A DNA stretch of 45,022 nt, taken from Syntrophomonas sp. (GTDB lineage Bacteria; Bacillota; Syntrophomonadia; Syntrophomonadales; Syntrophomonadaceae). Position numbers and translations under genes: made by a program. The stretch spans positions 166,061 to 211,082 of the forward strand of contig JAENYG010000003.1 of the NCBI GenBank assembly GCA_016841875.1, in the 5' to 3' direction. Below the pieces are notes generated by a model, which made no database searches, was not told the DNA's origin, and saw only the letters and a list, made by a program, of their open reading frames with translations. Of the stretch, positions 2,104 through 41,801 are shown piece after piece (position 1 is the first letter of the stretch; every line of letters begins with the position of its first letter).

Positions 2104-3150
2104 ATGAAATGGAAACCTTATTTGATTATTATCATCCCAATATTTTTGCTGGGACCATTTATAGGGCCCGGTTTGGCTATTATGGACCTTGAGAAGTATA
2201 CAAATCAGATGTCTTTACCGGCTCAGGAAATCAATCAAAATATTGAACAATTAGAAAAGAGCATCTCATCCCTTTACCAGAATACCGTAACGGTTAGTGA
2301 ATCGGCAGCGGAACTTGAAAAGGAGTATCGGGATCAGGAACAGACTCTGGAAGAGTTGGCTAATATCAGCCAGAGCCATAAGGAGATGTCAGATCAGATT
2401 TATGAAGAACGGATTCTGGCTATGCTGGGACCACCTATCGATTCTTATATTTCAGACAAGGTGAATATCAAGGTGTTTAAGCTGGATGAAATGGGCTACC
2501 GTGGATATATAGCTAAAGTTAAATTGTTTGATCCTGGAGCAGTCAAAGTACTCCTTGGTCAAGACAAGTTAGGTTCCGGAGAAACAACGAGCAGTGCAGT
2601 CACCAGGACCGGAGCTATTTTGGGAGTAAATGGAGGGGGCTTTTATCATTCAGGCAACCAGATTCTGCCCCTTGGCAATACCGTGGTGGACGGAGAGTTT
2701 GTTAACGGGTTTCATCCTTCGGATGGAGATATCTTCTTTGCTGGAATCAGCCGGGACGGCGATCTAATAGGTGGTATTTTCTATGATAAAGAAAGCTTGA
2801 CCCGCCTTAATCCTCAACAGGGGGTCAGTTTCCTTCCCATTCTGATCAAAGATGGTCAGCCCCAGGCTGTGCCCAAGGAATGGGAAACCACAAAACAACC
2901 TCGAACCATTATCGGCGAATATGCTAACGGTGATTTTGTCTTGATTGTGGTGGACGGGCGCCAGTCAGATTGGAGTTCAGGCGTAACCCTGGAGAGACTC
3001 CAAAACAAGCTTGCCGAGCTGGGAGTTAAGGAAGGATACAACCTGGATGGCGGTGGTTCCAGCACTATGGTTTTCAAGGGCAAAGTATTGAATCGTCCTT
3101 CAGATGGAAATGAGCGGGCAGTTTCTAATAATATTGTAATACTGCCATGA
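2104..3150 (+). CDS. Phosphodiester glycosidase family (NAGPA/DUF2233-like) exported protein
   Basis: I place the start at ATG 2104 because AAAGAGGT lies just upstream; the frame also opens at ATG 2050, which has no good ribosome site. The product is 348 residues. An N-terminal hydrophobic segment (YLIIIIPIFLLGPFIGPG) is a signal anchor, followed by a coiled coil to about residue 120. The remaining ~210 residues form the NAGPA-type domain, with family hallmarks GAILGVNGGGFY, TIIGEYANGDFVLIVVDGRQ and YNLDGGGSSTMVF, the last being the usual Asp-Gly-Gly-Gly-Ser-Ser motif. The family includes the enzyme that uncovers mannose-6-phosphate and bacterial proteins linked to exopolysaccharide or spore-surface metabolism. 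Substrate is unknown. A 3' fragment of this gene is duplicated at 18899-19310. Confidence 0.85.
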   Translation: MKWKPYLIIIIPIFLLGPFIGPGLAIMDLEKYTNQMSLPAQEINQNIEQLEKSISSLYQNTVTVSESAAELEKEYRDQEQTLEELANISQSHKEMSDQIYEERILAMLGPPIDSYISDKVNIKVFKLDEMGYRGYIAKVKLFDPGAVKVLLGQDKLGSGETTSSAVTRTGAILGVNGGGFYHSGNQILPLGNTVVDGEFVNGFHPSDGDIFFAGISRDGDLIGGIFYDKESLTRLNPQQGVSFLPILIKDGQPQAVPKEWETTKQPRTIIGEYANGDFVLIVVDGRQSDWSSGVTLERLQNKLAELGVKEGYNLDGGGSSTMVFKGKVLNRPSDGNERAVSNNIVILP

Positions 3151-3478
3151 GAAACGCGAGGAAGGTTACATTAAACCCCTGGATGTAATTAATAGCTTTG
3201 ATTAATGACCTCTTAATAGTAAATATAAGGTATTTCTAAGGAAAGGAGAATAGGGAACATGGCACTATCTCAATGCAAGCGGGGACGGTTCTTGACTTGC
3301 ATTTGCATATGAGTAATACCCGGGGACAGAGTTATTATCACCTTTAATACTTTAGTCAAATTCCCATTATCCACATACCCGTTAGCCTAATATGCGCAGT
3401 TTATGATAATTATACATTAAGCCTAATAAGGATATTGATCGATCACAAAAGCTGAGAATTTGGAAGGAAGCTGTTAGC
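3151..3478. other. Intergenic stretch with dispersed-repeat copy
   Basis: There is no gene here. Positions 3151-3205 are the original of the sequence carried along in the duplicated NAGPA fragment (compare 19265-19315). Positions ~3320-3395 (GGGGACAGAGTTAT to TTAGCCTAAT) are one copy of a dispersed repeat seen again at 26511-26575. A GGGGACGGTTCTTG motif at 3279 has the look of sequence flanking REP/RAYT-type elements (inference). Confidence 0.45.
3320..3395. repeat. Dispersed repeat, copy 1 (partner 26511-26575)
   Basis: Both copies show the ordered blocks GGGGAC--AGTTAT--TCACC and CATTATCCA-AT-CCC-TT-G-CTAAT with similar spacing. The copies are diverged and no coding function is visible. 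Orientation is the same in both places. Confidence 0.45.
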
Positions 3479-18854: not shown

Positions 18855-19265
18855 ATGAAAAGTTCGCGTGATGAATTATTTCAATTTAATAGTAAGCAAA
18901 TCTATGATGAAGAAAGCTTAAACCGCCTTAATCCTCAACAAGGGGTCAGCTTCCTTCTCGTTCTGATCAAAGACCCCCTTGCTGTGCCCAAGGAATGGGA
19001 AACCACCAAACAACCTCGAATCATTATAGGCGAGTATGCTAACGGTGATTTTATCTTGATCGTGGTGGACGGACGCCAGTCAGATTGGAGTTCAGGTGTA
19101 ACCCTGGAGAGACTCCAAAACAAGCTTGCCGAGTTGGGAGTTAAGGAAGGATACAACCTGGATGGCGGTGGTTCGAGCACTATGGTTTTCAAAGGCAAAG
19201 TATTAAATCGTCCTTCTGATGGAAATGAGCGGGCATTTTCTAATAATATTGTAATACTACCATGA
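18855..19265 (+). pseudogene. Duplicated 3' fragment of the NAGPA-like gene
   Basis: From ~18899 the frame is a close copy of 2781-3150, differing by scattered substitutions and a small deletion (one short region, LIKDGQPQAVPKE versus LIKDPLAVPKE). It keeps RQSDWSSGVTLERLQNKLAE and the DGGGSSTMVF motif but lacks the signal anchor, coiled coil and first half of the domain. The homology continues ~45 bp past the stop into non-coding sequence (AGCTTTGATT), so DNA rather than mRNA was copied. The first 15 codons (MKSSRDELFQFNSKQ) are unrelated. No good ribosome site is seen, so it is most likely non-functional. Confidence 0.8.
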
Positions 19266-19392
19266 GAGACGTGAGGAAGATTTAAATTGAATCCCTGGCT
19301 GTAATTAATAGCTTTGATTTTAGGTTTGAACGCCTCGGCCATGAGTGGGCCTGAACATGACGGTCCTAATTCCTCCAGCAGGCATGGTATTA

Positions 19393-20444: not shown

Positions 20445-20729
20445 GATTTCAACCTCCCTTAATAAGCAGTGAAATTATAAAATAGGTCCTAAAACAATAT
20501 ATGTAGTTCACAGTCAAATGGTTAAATATGCCATAATGAAATTGTTCTCTTGGCTATAATGTATTATGCTAGACTATGGTACCAGTCACGGAGATGCGGG
20601 GAGGCACCTGCTAGGAGGGGCCCACGTGCACCTTAATATTACAGGGGGATTGAGCTGGCCAAACTGCTGATATTTAGTAACACGGCGGGCAGTGATGGTT
20701 TACATAATGTTACTGCCATCTCTCTTTTC

Positions 20730-20789
20730 GTGCGATATAATCTTATTTGCTATATATCGCACTATATGCTATAATCATCGTACGAGGTG
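20730..20789 (+). promoter_or_regulatory. Promoter and palindromic operator of Phd-Uma2 copy 1
   Basis: TTGCTA (20747-20752), a 17-bp spacer and TATAAT (20770-20775) form a good SigA promoter with a TGC extension. GTGCGATATA (20730-20739) and TATATCGCAC (20753-20762) are a perfect 10-bp inverted repeat across it, and TCGTACGA at ~20778-20785 is a second palindrome before the GAGGTG ribosome site. This suggests autorepression by the N-terminal Phd domain (inference). Confidence 0.65.
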
Positions 20790-20795
20790 ATTGAT

Positions 20796-21545
20796 ATGAA
20801 TGAAACCACAAAAGTTATTACCGCCACTGAGTTGAAGACCAATCTGGGTCAATACATCGACTATGTTATTGATGACCACGAGGTTGTTATTACCAAAAAC
20901 GGTAAAAAGGCCATAAGAATTACACCTTACATCACTGATATCGAACGATATTTTTTGGTCAAAGAAAACGCATTAGATTATCAATATGGCGGCAAGAAAG
21001 TATCATATGAAGAATTCATGGAGATTTACGAGAAAAGCGAGCTAAGAATGGAATATATCAACGGTGAAATAGTCCTTTTGGCTTCCCCCAGCACCTATCA
21101 TCAGGACATATCCGGGAATTTGCATATCCATCTGCGATCATATTTAAAAGGCAAGAATTGCAAGGTTTTCTACGCCCCTTTTGATGTTCATTTCTACAAA
21201 AAAGACCTTAAAACACCTGATGTAATGCAGCCCGATTTGCTTATAGCATGCGATTTGGAGAATAACGTTAATGAAAACGGCCGATACATGGGTACACCCA
21301 CGCTTTGCGTTGAAATTTTATCAAAAAGCACTCGTTCAAAGGATATGGTAGATAAGCTCAATACTTATATGTTATCCGGTGTGAGGGAATTCTGGATTGT
21401 CGATCCTTTTAAACATTCTGTTATGGTGTATGGCTTTAAGGACTTAGAAATTGACGAGTATACCACCTGTAAAATCGGGGATACGCTAACATCGTATTTT
21501 TTTGAGGGTTTAGAGATTCCGATAAGTGAAGTATTCGAGTTTTAA
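20796..21545 (+). CDS. Phd/YefM antitoxin-Uma2 nuclease fusion, copy 1
   Basis: I choose ATG 20796 (GAGGTG six bases before) over an in-frame GTG at 20787. The protein has 249 residues. Residues ~5-50 are a Phd/YefM-type DNA-binding domain (VITATELKTNLGQYIDYV, then VVITKNGKKAIRI). Residues ~70-245 are a Uma2 (DUF820) domain of the PD-(D/E)xK nuclease fold: Glu91 in NGEIVLL, Asp147 in QPDLLI, Glu173 in VEILS and Lys187 followed by YMLSGVREFWIVDP. All candidate catalytic residues are kept. Uma2 is presumed an endonuclease but its substrate is not established. A near-identical gene lies at 38620. The domain pairing suggests a self-regulated nuclease. Confidence 0.8.
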   Translation: MNETTKVITATELKTNLGQYIDYVIDDHEVVITKNGKKAIRITPYITDIERYFLVKENALDYQYGGKKVSYEEFMEIYEKSELRMEYINGEIVLLASPSTYHQDISGNLHIHLRSYLKGKNCKVFYAPFDVHFYKKDLKTPDVMQPDLLIACDLENNVNENGRYMGTPTLCVEILSKSTRSKDMVDKLNTYMLSGVREFWIVDPFKHSVMVYGFKDLEIDEYTTCKIGDTLTSYFFEGLEIPISEVFEF

Positions 21546-37615: not shown

Positions 37616-37717
37616 ACTATCGCTAGACTTTACCTGGAAAGCTGATTTGACGCAATCCGGATAGATCGCTTGATAATTGGGGATGTCTCCCAGGATGAAG
37701 CATTGATCGTATTGGTT

Positions 37718-38020
37718 TTAAAGCAAATTCGTATAGTTTCGCTTACCGGAAACTATACGCCTGATTTCTACGATATCACCAGCCACAACATAAAAAATCA
37801 AGTATGCTTTAACAATCAGTATTTTATAGCCTCTATTAGCCAATCGCCGGTTTTTCGGGGTAACCCCCATATCAGGGAATTCTTCTAGATGCAGGATAGC
37901 TGCATCAATCTCATTCAATAGATCTTCTGCAGCTTTTGGATCGTCTGCAATAATATAGCTAAAAATATCTTCTAGATCATCGTAAGCCAGTGGCAAATAT
38001 TCAACGCTATATTTACCCAT
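37718..38020 (-). CDS. ParE/RelE-family toxin
   Basis: The 100-residue protein has the ParE/RelE fold pattern: YSVEYLPLAYDDLEDIFSYI, then AAEDLLNEIDAAI, LEEFPDMG, the strand YKILIVKAYLIFYVV and a final VEIRRIVSGKRNY. ParE toxins inhibit gyrase and RelE relatives cut mRNA; the sequence looks closer to ParE, but the target is not proven. Its start overlaps the antitoxin gene by 8 bases, as is usual for TA operons in antitoxin-first order. Confidence 0.85.
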   Translation of the reverse strand: MGKYSVEYLPLAYDDLEDIFSYIIADDPKAAEDLLNEIDAAILHLEEFPDMGVTPKNRRLANRGYKILIVKAYLIFYVVAGDIVEIRRIVSGKRNYTNLL

Positions 38021-38279
38021 TAAGCCGCGCCCTTAGCCTTGCCATGACTTCACGGTGAGGTATTCTTTTGGTCCCCTGGGCGCTTTGGACTTCGGCTTCA
38101 TCCAGGTTGTCATATAACTCCATAAGTGCTTGCTGTTCCTCATATAATCTTTGGCTCATAATTACCAGGTGACCATTTCCGTTCTTGGTTATAAAAACCG
38201 GCTTTTGTTCCTTGATGCATATTTCTTCAATTTCGGGGGTCTTATTTCGCAAATCAGAAACTGGACGAATAACAGGCAT
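38013..38279 (-). CDS. Phd/YefM-family antitoxin
   Basis: The 88-residue protein starts at ATG 38279 with GAGGTG five bases before; an in-frame GTG at 38288 overlaps that site. The N-terminus (MPVIRPVSDLRNKTPEIEEI, then KPVFITKNGNGHLVIM) is a Phd/YefM DNA-binding domain and the C-terminal helix (RIPHREVMARLRARL) would wrap the toxin. It is expected to neutralise the overlapping ParE-like toxin and repress the operon. Confidence 0.85.
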   Translation of the reverse strand: MPVIRPVSDLRNKTPEIEEICIKEQKPVFITKNGNGHLVIMSQRLYEEQQALMELYDNLDEAEVQSAQGTKRIPHREVMARLRARLNG

Positions 38280-38292
38280 TATGCTCACCTCG

Positions 38293-38330
38293 CATTATTT
38301 TTATATTATTATATCATAATAATGATAAAT
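38293..38330 (-). promoter_or_regulatory. Promoter/operator of the ParE-Phd operon
   Basis: On the minus strand TATAAT (within 38315-38308) is a good -10 element ~30 bp before the antitoxin start. TATCAT (38312-38317) and ATGATA (38322-38327) form a palindrome overlapping it, a likely site for the antitoxin. Confidence 0.5.
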
Positions 38331-38569
38331 TAATTCATTAAGTTTGTTGATGGTGGTCTCGTTAAGTATTATGGTTTCCTCCCATAGTACTCAGCCCCAC
38401 GGGTGAAACCCAATTAGCATTAACTTATTTACCAAGCCGTTTACCAGTCGTGGTGACGGGTAATACCGTAAATAGCTTCAGCGGATGGAGTGGGAAAAAG
38501 ATCATATTCGAAAAAGAAGCCAACAAAAAGACCGTCCCTCCATTAGCCTTTTCGTACTACAATAACATA
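38331..38569. other. Intergenic stretch
   Basis: No gene is recognised. It contains a GACCGTCCCTCC-like scrap resembling the GGGAC-type remnants seen elsewhere. Confidence 0.35.
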
Positions 38570-38616
38570 TTGGCATAATATCGTACTATATGCTATAATT
38601 TTCGTACGAGGTGATT
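38570..38616 (+). promoter_or_regulatory. Promoter of Phd-Uma2 copy 2
   Basis: TTGGCA (38570-38575), an 18-bp spacer and TATAAT (38594-38599) form a strong SigA-type promoter. The part ATATCG-ACTATATGCTATAAT and TCGTACGA is shared with copy 1, but the left arm of copy 1's 10-bp palindrome is absent, so operator architecture differs. Confidence 0.65.
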
Positions 38617-38619
38617 AAT

Positions 38620-39369
38620 ATGGATGATACCACAAAAGTTATTACCGCCACCGAGTTGAAGACCAATCTGGGTAAATACATCGACTATGTTATCGATGAC
38701 CACGAGGTTGTTATTACCAAAAACGGCAAAAAGGCCATAAGGATTACCCCTTACATCACTGATATCGAGCGATATTTTTTGGTCAAAGAAAACGCATTAG
38801 ATTATCAATATGGCGGCAAGAAAGTATCATATGAAGAATTCATGGAGATTTACGAGAAAAGCGAGCTAAGAATGGAATATATCAACGGTGAAATAGTCCT
38901 TTTGGCTTCCCCCAGCACCTATCATCAGGACATATCCGGGAATTTGCATATCCATCTGCGATCATATTTAAAAGGCAAGAATTGCAAGGTTTTCTACGCC
39001 CCTTTTGATGTTCATTTCTACAAAAAAGACCTTAAAACACCTGATGTAATGCAGCCCGATTTGCTTATAGCATGCGATTTGGAGAATAACGTTAATGAAA
39101 ACGGCCGATACATGGGTACACCCACGCTTTGCGTTGAAATTTTATCAAAAAGCACTCGTTCAAAGGATATGGTAGATAAGCTCAATACTTATATGTTATC
39201 CGGTGTGAGGGAATTCTGGATTGTCGATCCTTTTAAACATTCTGTTATGGTCTATGGCTTTAAGGACTTAGAAATTGACGAGTATACCACCTGTAAACTC
39301 GAGGACACTCTGACATCGTATTTTTTTGATGGTTTAGAGATTCCGATAAACGAAGTATTCGAATTTTAA
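38620..39369 (+). CDS. Phd/YefM antitoxin-Uma2 nuclease fusion, copy 2
   Basis: The 249-residue protein is nearly identical to the one at 20796. It differs by a few residues at the N-terminus (MDDTTK versus MNETTK, LGKY versus LGQY) and near the C-terminus (KLEDTLTSYFFDG versus KIGDTLTSYFFEG, INEVF versus ISEVF). The central ~150 codons are the same in protein and apparently in DNA. All putative Uma2 catalytic residues are intact. GAGGTG precedes the ATG. Its 3' end overlaps by 4 bases the converging broken protease gene. Confidence 0.8.
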   Translation: MDDTTKVITATELKTNLGKYIDYVIDDHEVVITKNGKKAIRITPYITDIERYFLVKENALDYQYGGKKVSYEEFMEIYEKSELRMEYINGEIVLLASPSTYHQDISGNLHIHLRSYLKGKNCKVFYAPFDVHFYKKDLKTPDVMQPDLLIACDLENNVNENGRYMGTPTLCVEILSKSTRSKDMVDKLNTYMLSGVREFWIVDPFKHSVMVYGFKDLEIDEYTTCKLEDTLTSYFFDGLEIPINEVFEF

Positions 39370-41635
39370 TCAACATAGTATATCTGATCAATGGGAATAG
39401 CCAAGTTCAGATTTTGACCATCAATAAATGTACCCGTTGTTATGCCAATTACCTCACCAAATTCGTTTATAAGTGCACCTCCGCTACTACCAGGGGATAT
39501 AGGTGCAGAGATTTGGAACCAGGTTTGACCGTCAAATAAACGTTCAGGGTTAGATATTAACCCAGCAGAAATGGTGTTTTCCAATCCTAATGGACAACCA
39601 ATAGTATAAATTGTTTGTCCTCCCACAACCTTAGCAGAGTCGCCGATTTTTAAGTAATCAAATCCAGTTCCTGGTATTTTCAATATTGCTATATCATTAA
39701 CGATACTTGATCCCAGTAACGAGTCAGCCCACAATACACTTCCATTTGTTGTAAGAATTTTTACGTAACTAGCCCCCTGTATTACACCTCACCGTCATCT
39801 GTGATAAAGAATCCACTGCCTGTACCAAGCAACTCTGAATTTGAATCGTAAGCCTCAATATAAACCACGCTCGATGAACATTTAGCATATATGTCTTTTG
39901 ACGAAAGTACTGAATTTAATTCCGAGTTGACTTCAGGTATAGAATAGGTGGAATCATTTGGATTGGATGTTATCGTTCCTTGATCTTGATTAAAAAGCCA
40001 TGTTGCCAAATTCTTATGGGTAGATGCTTCCGACTTAAATGAAGCAATATAGTCATTATCGTTATAATCTGTATACACAAAATGTCCATCAAAAACTCCA
40101 AAGTTTATATGGTTTTGCTTAGTTTGTACACTACCCCATTGATTTTTTGCATTTATTTCATCAATTCGTGCTATCCAATCAAAGTTGTAGTATAAAGAAT
40201 TATTAAAATAATTAATATCAACAGGAAAACCCATAATACTGGTATCCCCTCGATATAATAACTTTTTGGAAGTAATATTATTTAACATCACTTTATTTAC
40301 ATTACCGCTTCTTTCAACATAATACGCTATGTTACCATAAAATGAAACGGTACTAACATTTTGCAGAATCGGTAATTCTGCCTGTGTACTAATATCCAGT
40401 TCCATTATTTTTGATTCTGCCAGATAATATAAATGACCATTAATGCCTGAAAGTCTATAAGCCCACCCTTCACCACTCTTTAAGGTATATTGGTTAGTGC
40501 CAGCGATCTTTCTTATATCATATAAAGAATAGGCGGCATCTTGATCTGACGTATCCCAATCAGGATTGTTTTTAGTGGTTAAGATATACAACTCATCTCC
40601 ATAAATAGTTAACCCAGAAATATAATCTCCATCAAATATTTTACTAACTACATATGAATCTAAGCTAATCTTTTTTAAAATACTCTTAAAATCATAAGTA
40701 TTAAAATCAAAATCAGCTTCAACTATATACAGTTCCCGGTTATACATCGATTTTATTTTAGGCGCTTCAAAATGAGATTTATTCTCAAGTATATTCCCGT
40801 AATAAATTATGTTTGTTTTCTTAGTAATAGTGTTATACTCGGCTATGTTATATCTAGAAAATGTTTTATCCCAATAAACAATATAAACTTGGTTTCCACT
40901 CTGAAAAACACTCGAATAATTTTGTATATTACCTTCTTGGCCAACTATTTCAGAATTATAGTTGCGATCATGGGCAAGTCTATTTAGGGGGTCTATCAGT
41001 CTTCCAATAATCGTTGCAATTTCAGCTCTGGTTGCTAAGCCATTGCCATCAAACAAACCTCCTGATTTGCCGCCAATAATTCCTGACGAATACATTTTTT
41101 GAACGGATTCACGGTAAATAGCACTAATTTCATCAATGTCGGGGACAGCTAAATCATTTATAGCCGCAGTATCTTGGGAAGATAATATTTGCGCAAATAA
41201 ATACGCTATTTCAGAACGCGTTATATATTGGGTACTCACATCTGATACTGACGTATAACTTGGTGGCAGTAAATTGTTATTTTGAGCATAAATAAAGTAT
41301 TTCTCATACCAAAAAGGTGAATCAATTTCAGAAACTAGTTGTTTGGTATAAATTGCATGAACTCTCGCTGCAATTGTAATTGCTTGTGCTTTTGTAAGAT
41401 TCCTATTAGGTGCATAAAGGTTTAGGCCAACCCCATCCATAATGCCATAATCAAATACTGTCTTAACCCCTGAATAAAACCAATTCACTTCTTTTACGTC
41501 TGAGAATGTAGTTATTTCCATCGATTTTATTGTATTAAAATTACTTAAAGTGCCAAAACTCTGAGCATTAGCATTTTTGCTGCCGAACAATAAAACTACA
41601 AAAAAAATAATTACCAGGACTTTAAGTCTCTTCAT
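39366..41635 (-). pseudogene. SLH-domain, beta-propeller, serine-protease surface protein, broken
   Basis: From ATG 41635 (GAGGAG six bases before) the frame gives a signal peptide (KVLVIIFFVVLLFGSKNANA), three S-layer-homology domains for cell-wall attachment (residues ~45-220), a DUF5050-like propeller (to ~550), and the start of a trypsin-like HtrA-type protease domain (GTGSGFFITDDGEV) that stops at 39782. The rest continues in another frame: VIQGASYVKILTTNGSVLWA, catalytic Asp in VNDIAIL and catalytic Ser in SPGSSGGAL, ending at 39366. Between GEV and VIQG the usual V-T-N-Y-H is missing, so a short deletion removed the catalytic His and shifted the frame. The protease cannot work, but the truncated surface part may still be made. 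Confidence 0.8.
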
Positions 41636-41801
41636 GTTAATCTCCTCTGTTTTATAAACCATCTAGTTTGAAGGCTTCGTTCTTTTTTCAGCTTACTGTA
41701 TTTCCCTATAATATCTGAATTATACATTATTTGCCTAATTTATTCCAGGAATACAAATTTGAGATACCCTCAACGTAATATATTTAAAAACAATTTGATT
41801 A

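Follow-up and report, generated by a model that had tools for sequence, protein, structure and literature searches.

A predicted Uma2 nuclease fused to a Phd/YefM DNA-binding domain, with a conserved array of putative operators at its promoter, in Syntrophomonas and other Bacillota

We describe a gene of Syntrophomonas sp. (20796..21545, + strand; an open reading frame of 249 amino acids) whose product is a Phd/YefM DNA-binding domain joined to an intact predicted nuclease of the Uma2 family (COG4636), of the PD-EXX-K type. Coordinates are those of the window, by which we mean the whole stretch of 45,022 nt that was analysed. Our main reading, to which we give a probability of roughly two in three, is that this is a solo chromosomal nuclease gene carrying its own repressor, which would shut the gene off through three operators in its promoter and so keep the nuclease low.

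Both domains score above their curated Pfam cut-offs, confirming the fusion proposed in an earlier sequence-only reading. Residues 6–45 (20811..20930, + strand) match PhdYeFM_antitox (PF02604; E 4e-10, 39.7 bits, cut-off 29.8) and residues 72–243 (21009..21524, + strand) match Uma2 (E 1e-26, 93.7 bits, cut-off 27); residues 7–45 are also recognized by the NCBIfam model TIGR01552 (phd_fam, prevent-host-death family). That reading had also placed a nuclease where the toxin-binding tail should be, and the profile bears this out: only positions 2–42 of the 74 in the Phd/YefM profile are covered, the linker and Uma2 follow, and the C-terminal toxin-neutralizing segment is absent.

The Phd fold that had been predicted for the N-terminal ∼50 residues was recovered in a confident two-domain AlphaFold2 model (monomer, built on 30 aligned relatives, pLDDT 82.6). 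The modelled topology is E5–9, H10–15, H17–25, E29–34, E37–42, with the Uma2 domain after it and a flexible linker of low confidence at residues 49–66. Foldseek ranks the Uma2 structures 9y1l, 6okh, 3ot2 and 1wdj on top (residues 67–249) and Phd-type antitoxins next, with fold matches across residues 5–54 to the Phd-operator structures 4zm2, 4zm0 and 4zlx and to YefM. By VIA-align, 6okh reaches Z 23.6 across residues 67–249; the Phd N-terminal domain 4zlx gives Z 6.1 (rmsd 2.0, 46 aligned) and 4zm2, Phd on operator DNA, gives Z 5.9 (rmsd 2.5 over 49, residues 5–57). The structural score of the modelled Phd part is middling by itself; profile, topology and residue range agree with it.

The nuclease part retains the complete H-PD-EXX-K active-site set, a motif defined for COG4636 in PMC551604. 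Among 74 non-redundant relatives E173 and K187 are present in all, and H102 and D147 in at least 95% of clade 1 and 90% of clade 2; the four residues are invariant in the 30-row alignment and are kept together in all 40 further relatives. Judged by dN/dS, which is ∼0.1 for each domain (between copies and orthologues), both Phd and Uma2 are under purifying selection. Our open-access literature search found no report of Uma2 nuclease activity.

The architecture is conserved in Bacillota and is no one-off. More than 100 relatives were compared overall. All 80 genome loci returned match the fusion protein over essentially its full length; their hosts (Syntrophomonas, Dethiobacter, Desulfosporosinus, Paenibacillus, Ruminiclostridium and others) are nearly all Bacillota, and one locus lies on a contig labelled Bacteroidales that may be misbinned. 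A count of fusions, as the sequence-only reading had proposed, gave at least 76 matches that start no later than residue 10 and reach the end, in at least 39 of 299 genomes sampled from the phylum (a hand count, among the matches listed); at least 145 of the 299 have any match to the protein. The genome studied here holds two more fusions besides the two in the window, and one Uma2 gene lacking the Phd domain. Some genomes carry side-by-side Phd-Uma2 pairs, of the same operator clade (locus L063) or of two different clades (L067). The plasmid records, phage records and viral contigs searched yielded only Uma2 without Phd, and zero fusions.

Upstream of the gene, a promoter is predicted at 20747..20775 (+ strand; TTGCTA, 17 nt, TATAAT, with TG before the −10). 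Three putative operators, conserved in orthologues, are arrayed across it. O1 (TCGTGCGA, 20728..20735), an 8-bp palindrome, lies immediately upstream of the −35; O2 (TCGCACTA, 20757..20764) lies in the −35/−10 spacer, 29 bp from O1; O3 (TCGTACGA, 20778..20785) lies at the predicted start site, 21 bp from O2, and adjoins the ribosome-binding site. The sequence-only reading had noted a palindrome over the promoter. The inverted repeat GTGCGATATA/TATATCGCAC at 20730–20762 is indeed present, but it is not a single element: it comprises O1 and O2, two of the three 8-bp sites.

The array leaves a comparative footprint, which rests on 63 + 10 + 40 upstream regions. Upstream regions of close copies have three TCGTACGA-like words in common, and such words are kept in relatives down to ∼63% identity and decayed in the most distant. 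Across 63 non-redundant relatives, TCGTACGA ranks first among all 256 8-bp palindromes in the 110 bp of upstream DNA. The mean is 1.59 sites per 110 bp (≤1 mismatch allowed), where shuffles give 0.056 and DNA at a distance of over 1 kb gives 0.009. Two or more sites are found in 37 of the 63, and the commonest spacings among relatives are 21 and 50 bp. A diverged fusion clade, 36–46% identical, has TTAGCTAA in place of TCGTACGA and no TCGTACGA. The word TTAGCTAA first emerged from the window's own family. A test on 40 further loci, drawn from other genomes in the phylum, then found one or more sites in 39 and two or more in 34, the mean being 2.05 where shuffles give 0.18.

Operator word and Phd clade thus switch together, as autoregulation predicts. 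Palindromic sites across the own promoter are a Phd/YefM trait that the fusion, on this comparative evidence, would share, and the footprint is strong support for the view that the Phd part regulates its own gene through these palindromes, in keeping with the self-repression first suggested from the sequence. A conserved array beside a promoter could instead serve a different regulator.

The possibility that residue 14 alone sets operator choice (K14 for TCGTACGA, Q14 for TTAGCTAA) was rejected. The residue follows the operator word in most relatives, not all: K14 occurs with TTAGCTAA in two of the 40 (L211 and L227), so position 14 is not sufficient and not the sole determinant. Control of other genes by the same operators was likewise rejected, the eight genomic TCGTACGA sites that lie outside the promoters of the two copies being isolated singles, most of them within ORFs. 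A promoter relic was sought at L127 (contig C31) and gave no significant match. At another locus (L126; G000:C30:122880-124880) we observed a CRISPR-like array of repeats ATTTCAATCCACGCACCCACGCAGGGTGCGAC, one spacer-like segment of which contains TCGTACGA.

From these features we infer how DNA binding, repression and nuclease activity might be connected. The Phd part, as a dimer, would bind the three tandem 8-bp palindromes of TCGTACGA type spaced across the promoter. Once enough fusion protein is present, transcription of its own gene would be turned off, and this self-repression would hold the Uma2 nuclease at a low, self-set level. Should the level of the protein drop, or the protein be drawn off to a substrate, the promoter would open and nuclease would be made. 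The nuclease would probably act on foreign or damaged DNA, or further its own spread; a role in defence against invading DNA is plausible.

Gene context at 71 loci sets the fusion apart from type II toxin–antitoxin modules. Few same-strand neighbours lie within 60 bp, and no partner family recurs, the only frequent neighbour being another Uma2 gene (10 of 71); for this lack of a recurrent neighbour a partner toxin or antitoxin was rejected. The fusion thus does not form the two-gene operon that defines type II modules and, with the toxin-binding tail also missing, is not one of them. The suggestion that it might be an addiction module is not supported, on the same two points and further on its absence from all plasmid and phage records searched and the lack of genome-wide avoidance of the operator words.

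A single-polypeptide toxin–antitoxin like EzeT, in which Phd would keep the nuclease inactive in cis until proteolysis, is in our estimate quite improbable. An antitoxin-family domain does stand at the N-terminus of a predicted toxin, with a modelled linker (residues 49–66) that may be flexible, and this reading gains some support because Uma2 is rated a likely solo toxin by Makarova et al. 2009 (PMC2701414). Weighing against it, the tail with which Phd neutralizes toxins is missing, and the conserved promoter operators already account for the keeping of the DNA-binding half. Moreover, we know of no Phd antitoxin that inhibits a PD-(D/E)XK nuclease.

A fusion of a DNA-binding domain to a nuclease, with an unrelated HTH_17 domain in the same role elsewhere (below), would also fit a restriction-like, site-specific enzyme that Phd aims at TCGTACGA. 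We regard this as very unlikely. With TCGTACGA as the assumed target, neither a partner methyltransferase nor target-word avoidance was found: no methyltransferase neighbour recurs in the 71 loci, and the genome holds 10 TCGTACGA sites where 5.6 are expected from the counts of TCGTACG and CGTACG. CGTACG is rare in most relatives, with or without the fusion gene, and beyond this general rarity no restriction-like avoidance of the operator word is seen, which makes the operator an unlikely target for a restriction-like enzyme. The main target of such an enzyme would, besides, be its own promoter, and conversion between the two copies in the window (below) spares the operator region.

Some of the neighbouring Uma2 genes are themselves fusions to HTH_17, found in the same genomes as Phd-Uma2. 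HTH_17-Uma2 genes (L132:3302-4111, − strand, and L249–L268) have direct repeats TTTTAGTTGA at their promoters: at 20 promoters, phased TTTTAGTTGA-type repeats number 1.4–1.95 sites against 0.2–0.5 in shuffles, a small sample on part of which the motif was chosen. They are apparently a second, self-regulated type of Uma2 gene, to judge from these repeats, and a second, unrelated repressor-type domain on Uma2 suggests a general design. More broadly, the Uma2 nucleases of Bacillota might take up repressor domains that are interchangeable, either Phd (with TCGTACGA or TTAGCTAA operators) or HTH_17 (with TTTTAGTTGA repeats). By linking the sensing of DNA to expression, such a domain would let invading DNA titrate the protein off its promoter, giving a one-gene defence that induces itself; we hold this proposal as tentative and, on balance, unlikely. 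The Uma2 part of the fusion (residues 67–248 only) matches the PADLOC model PDLC04832, candidate system PDC-S03 (E 1.4e-57), a likeness by profile match alone; a literature search for the function of this candidate found none.

The second Phd-Uma2 copy in the window (38620..39369, + strand) is 97% identical in amino acid sequence. Its operator region (38548..38610) reads CGTACTA, TCGTACTA and TCGTACGA at positions as in copy 1. Aligned without gaps, 20724–21545 and 38548–39369 are 95.9% identical in nucleotides, and a tract of 482 bp (20946..21427, + strand) is identical while the other 340 positions differ at 34, indicating gene conversion. Divergence between the copies is greatest in the operator region: O1 and O2 of copy 2 read GTAC where those of copy 1 read GTGC and GCAC.

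These data bear on the proposal of Feder and Bujnicki (PMC551604) that COG4636 has a selfish, DNA-breaking role, with which they agree in part. Applied to the fusion, Uma2 would break DNA to promote its own spread and duplication, Phd would limit the damage, and the unit from operator to stop codon would be mobile. Near-identical units of ∼810–820 bp that begin at O1 and end with the stop codon do occur in unrelated flanks across genera; the copies exchange sequence by gene conversion; the sister genome G020 has flanks 98.7–99% identical around a gene just 94% identical; and a truncated, decayed copy is left in genome G018. On the other side, no terminal repeats, target-site duplication, transposase or mobile-element ends were identified for the unit, no fusions came from the plasmids, phages or viral contigs searched, and it is the operator region, part of the supposed unit, that has diverged most between copies. 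Three genomes of the same genus (G000, G020 and G021) also have parts of the sequence neighbouring copy 1 in common, so any spread is slow. Taken together, we consider such a selfish element possible, if rather unlikely.

The neighbourhood of copy 2 is probably accessory. The match of G020 to the window, at 99%, stops at about 37651. For the block beyond it (37652–41700, holding copy 2, a toxin–antitoxin pair and a trypsin-like protease) G020 has no matching sequence except its own Phd-Uma2 gene, so this block is likely an accessory region; an empty site for copy 2 was sought in G020, whose match ends there, and no clean one was found. The toxin–antitoxin pair, directly upstream of copy 2, is a conventional two-gene Phd/YefM antitoxin and ParE-family toxin (37718–38288, − strand). 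Beside the stop codon of copy 2 lies the protease gene, seemingly split (ORFs 39366–39734 and 39782–41662, − strand); it is convergent with copy 2 and their stop codons overlap. Elsewhere in the window, a 425-bp repeat of 91% identity (18901–19319 and 2780–3203) covers part of ORF 18855–19265, which may be a phosphodiester-glycosidase fragment, and the left edge (1–998) holds repeated blocks of up to ∼340 bp at 83–95% identity.

Set against known systems, the fusion resembles other Uma2/COG4636/DUF820 proteins (PF05685; 1wdj, 3ot2, 6okh, 9y1l) in fold, in the PD-EXX-K set with its H, and in occurring as dispersed solo genes with several paralogues per genome and other Uma2 genes adjacent; it differs by the N-terminal Phd repressor domain and the conserved operator array. 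With the YefM-YoeB/Axe-Txe and Phd-Doc operons it shares the Phd/YefM domain and several short palindromes over its own promoter. YefM has paired TGTACA palindromes there, 12 bp centre to centre (PMC7730913), whereas the operators of the fusion are TCGTACGA or TTAGCTAA, and in the TCGTACGA clade they lie mainly 21 and 29 bp apart; the fusion is also one gene, with a nuclease in place of the toxin-binding tail. EzeT likewise puts an antitoxin-type part and an effector on one chain, and its N-terminal domain inhibits the toxin in cis (PMC4826407); unlike EzeT, the fusion keeps the DNA-binding half of the antitoxin. In the open-access literature, Makarova et al. 2009 was the only relevant paper with both Uma2 and Phd, and its available part does not describe a Phd-Uma2 fusion; an earlier mention elsewhere is possible.

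Uma2 proteins are abundant predicted nucleases without a known function or mode of control. How such enzymes spare the host was a question raised by Feder and Bujnicki (2005; PMC551604), who found no hint of regulation. A built-in repressor with defined operators would be one answer, reusing an antitoxin-type DNA-binding domain without its toxin-binding tail. With defined operators, short DNA is enough to test for DNA binding and repression, and lifting the repression would provide a handle for finding what a Uma2 nuclease does.
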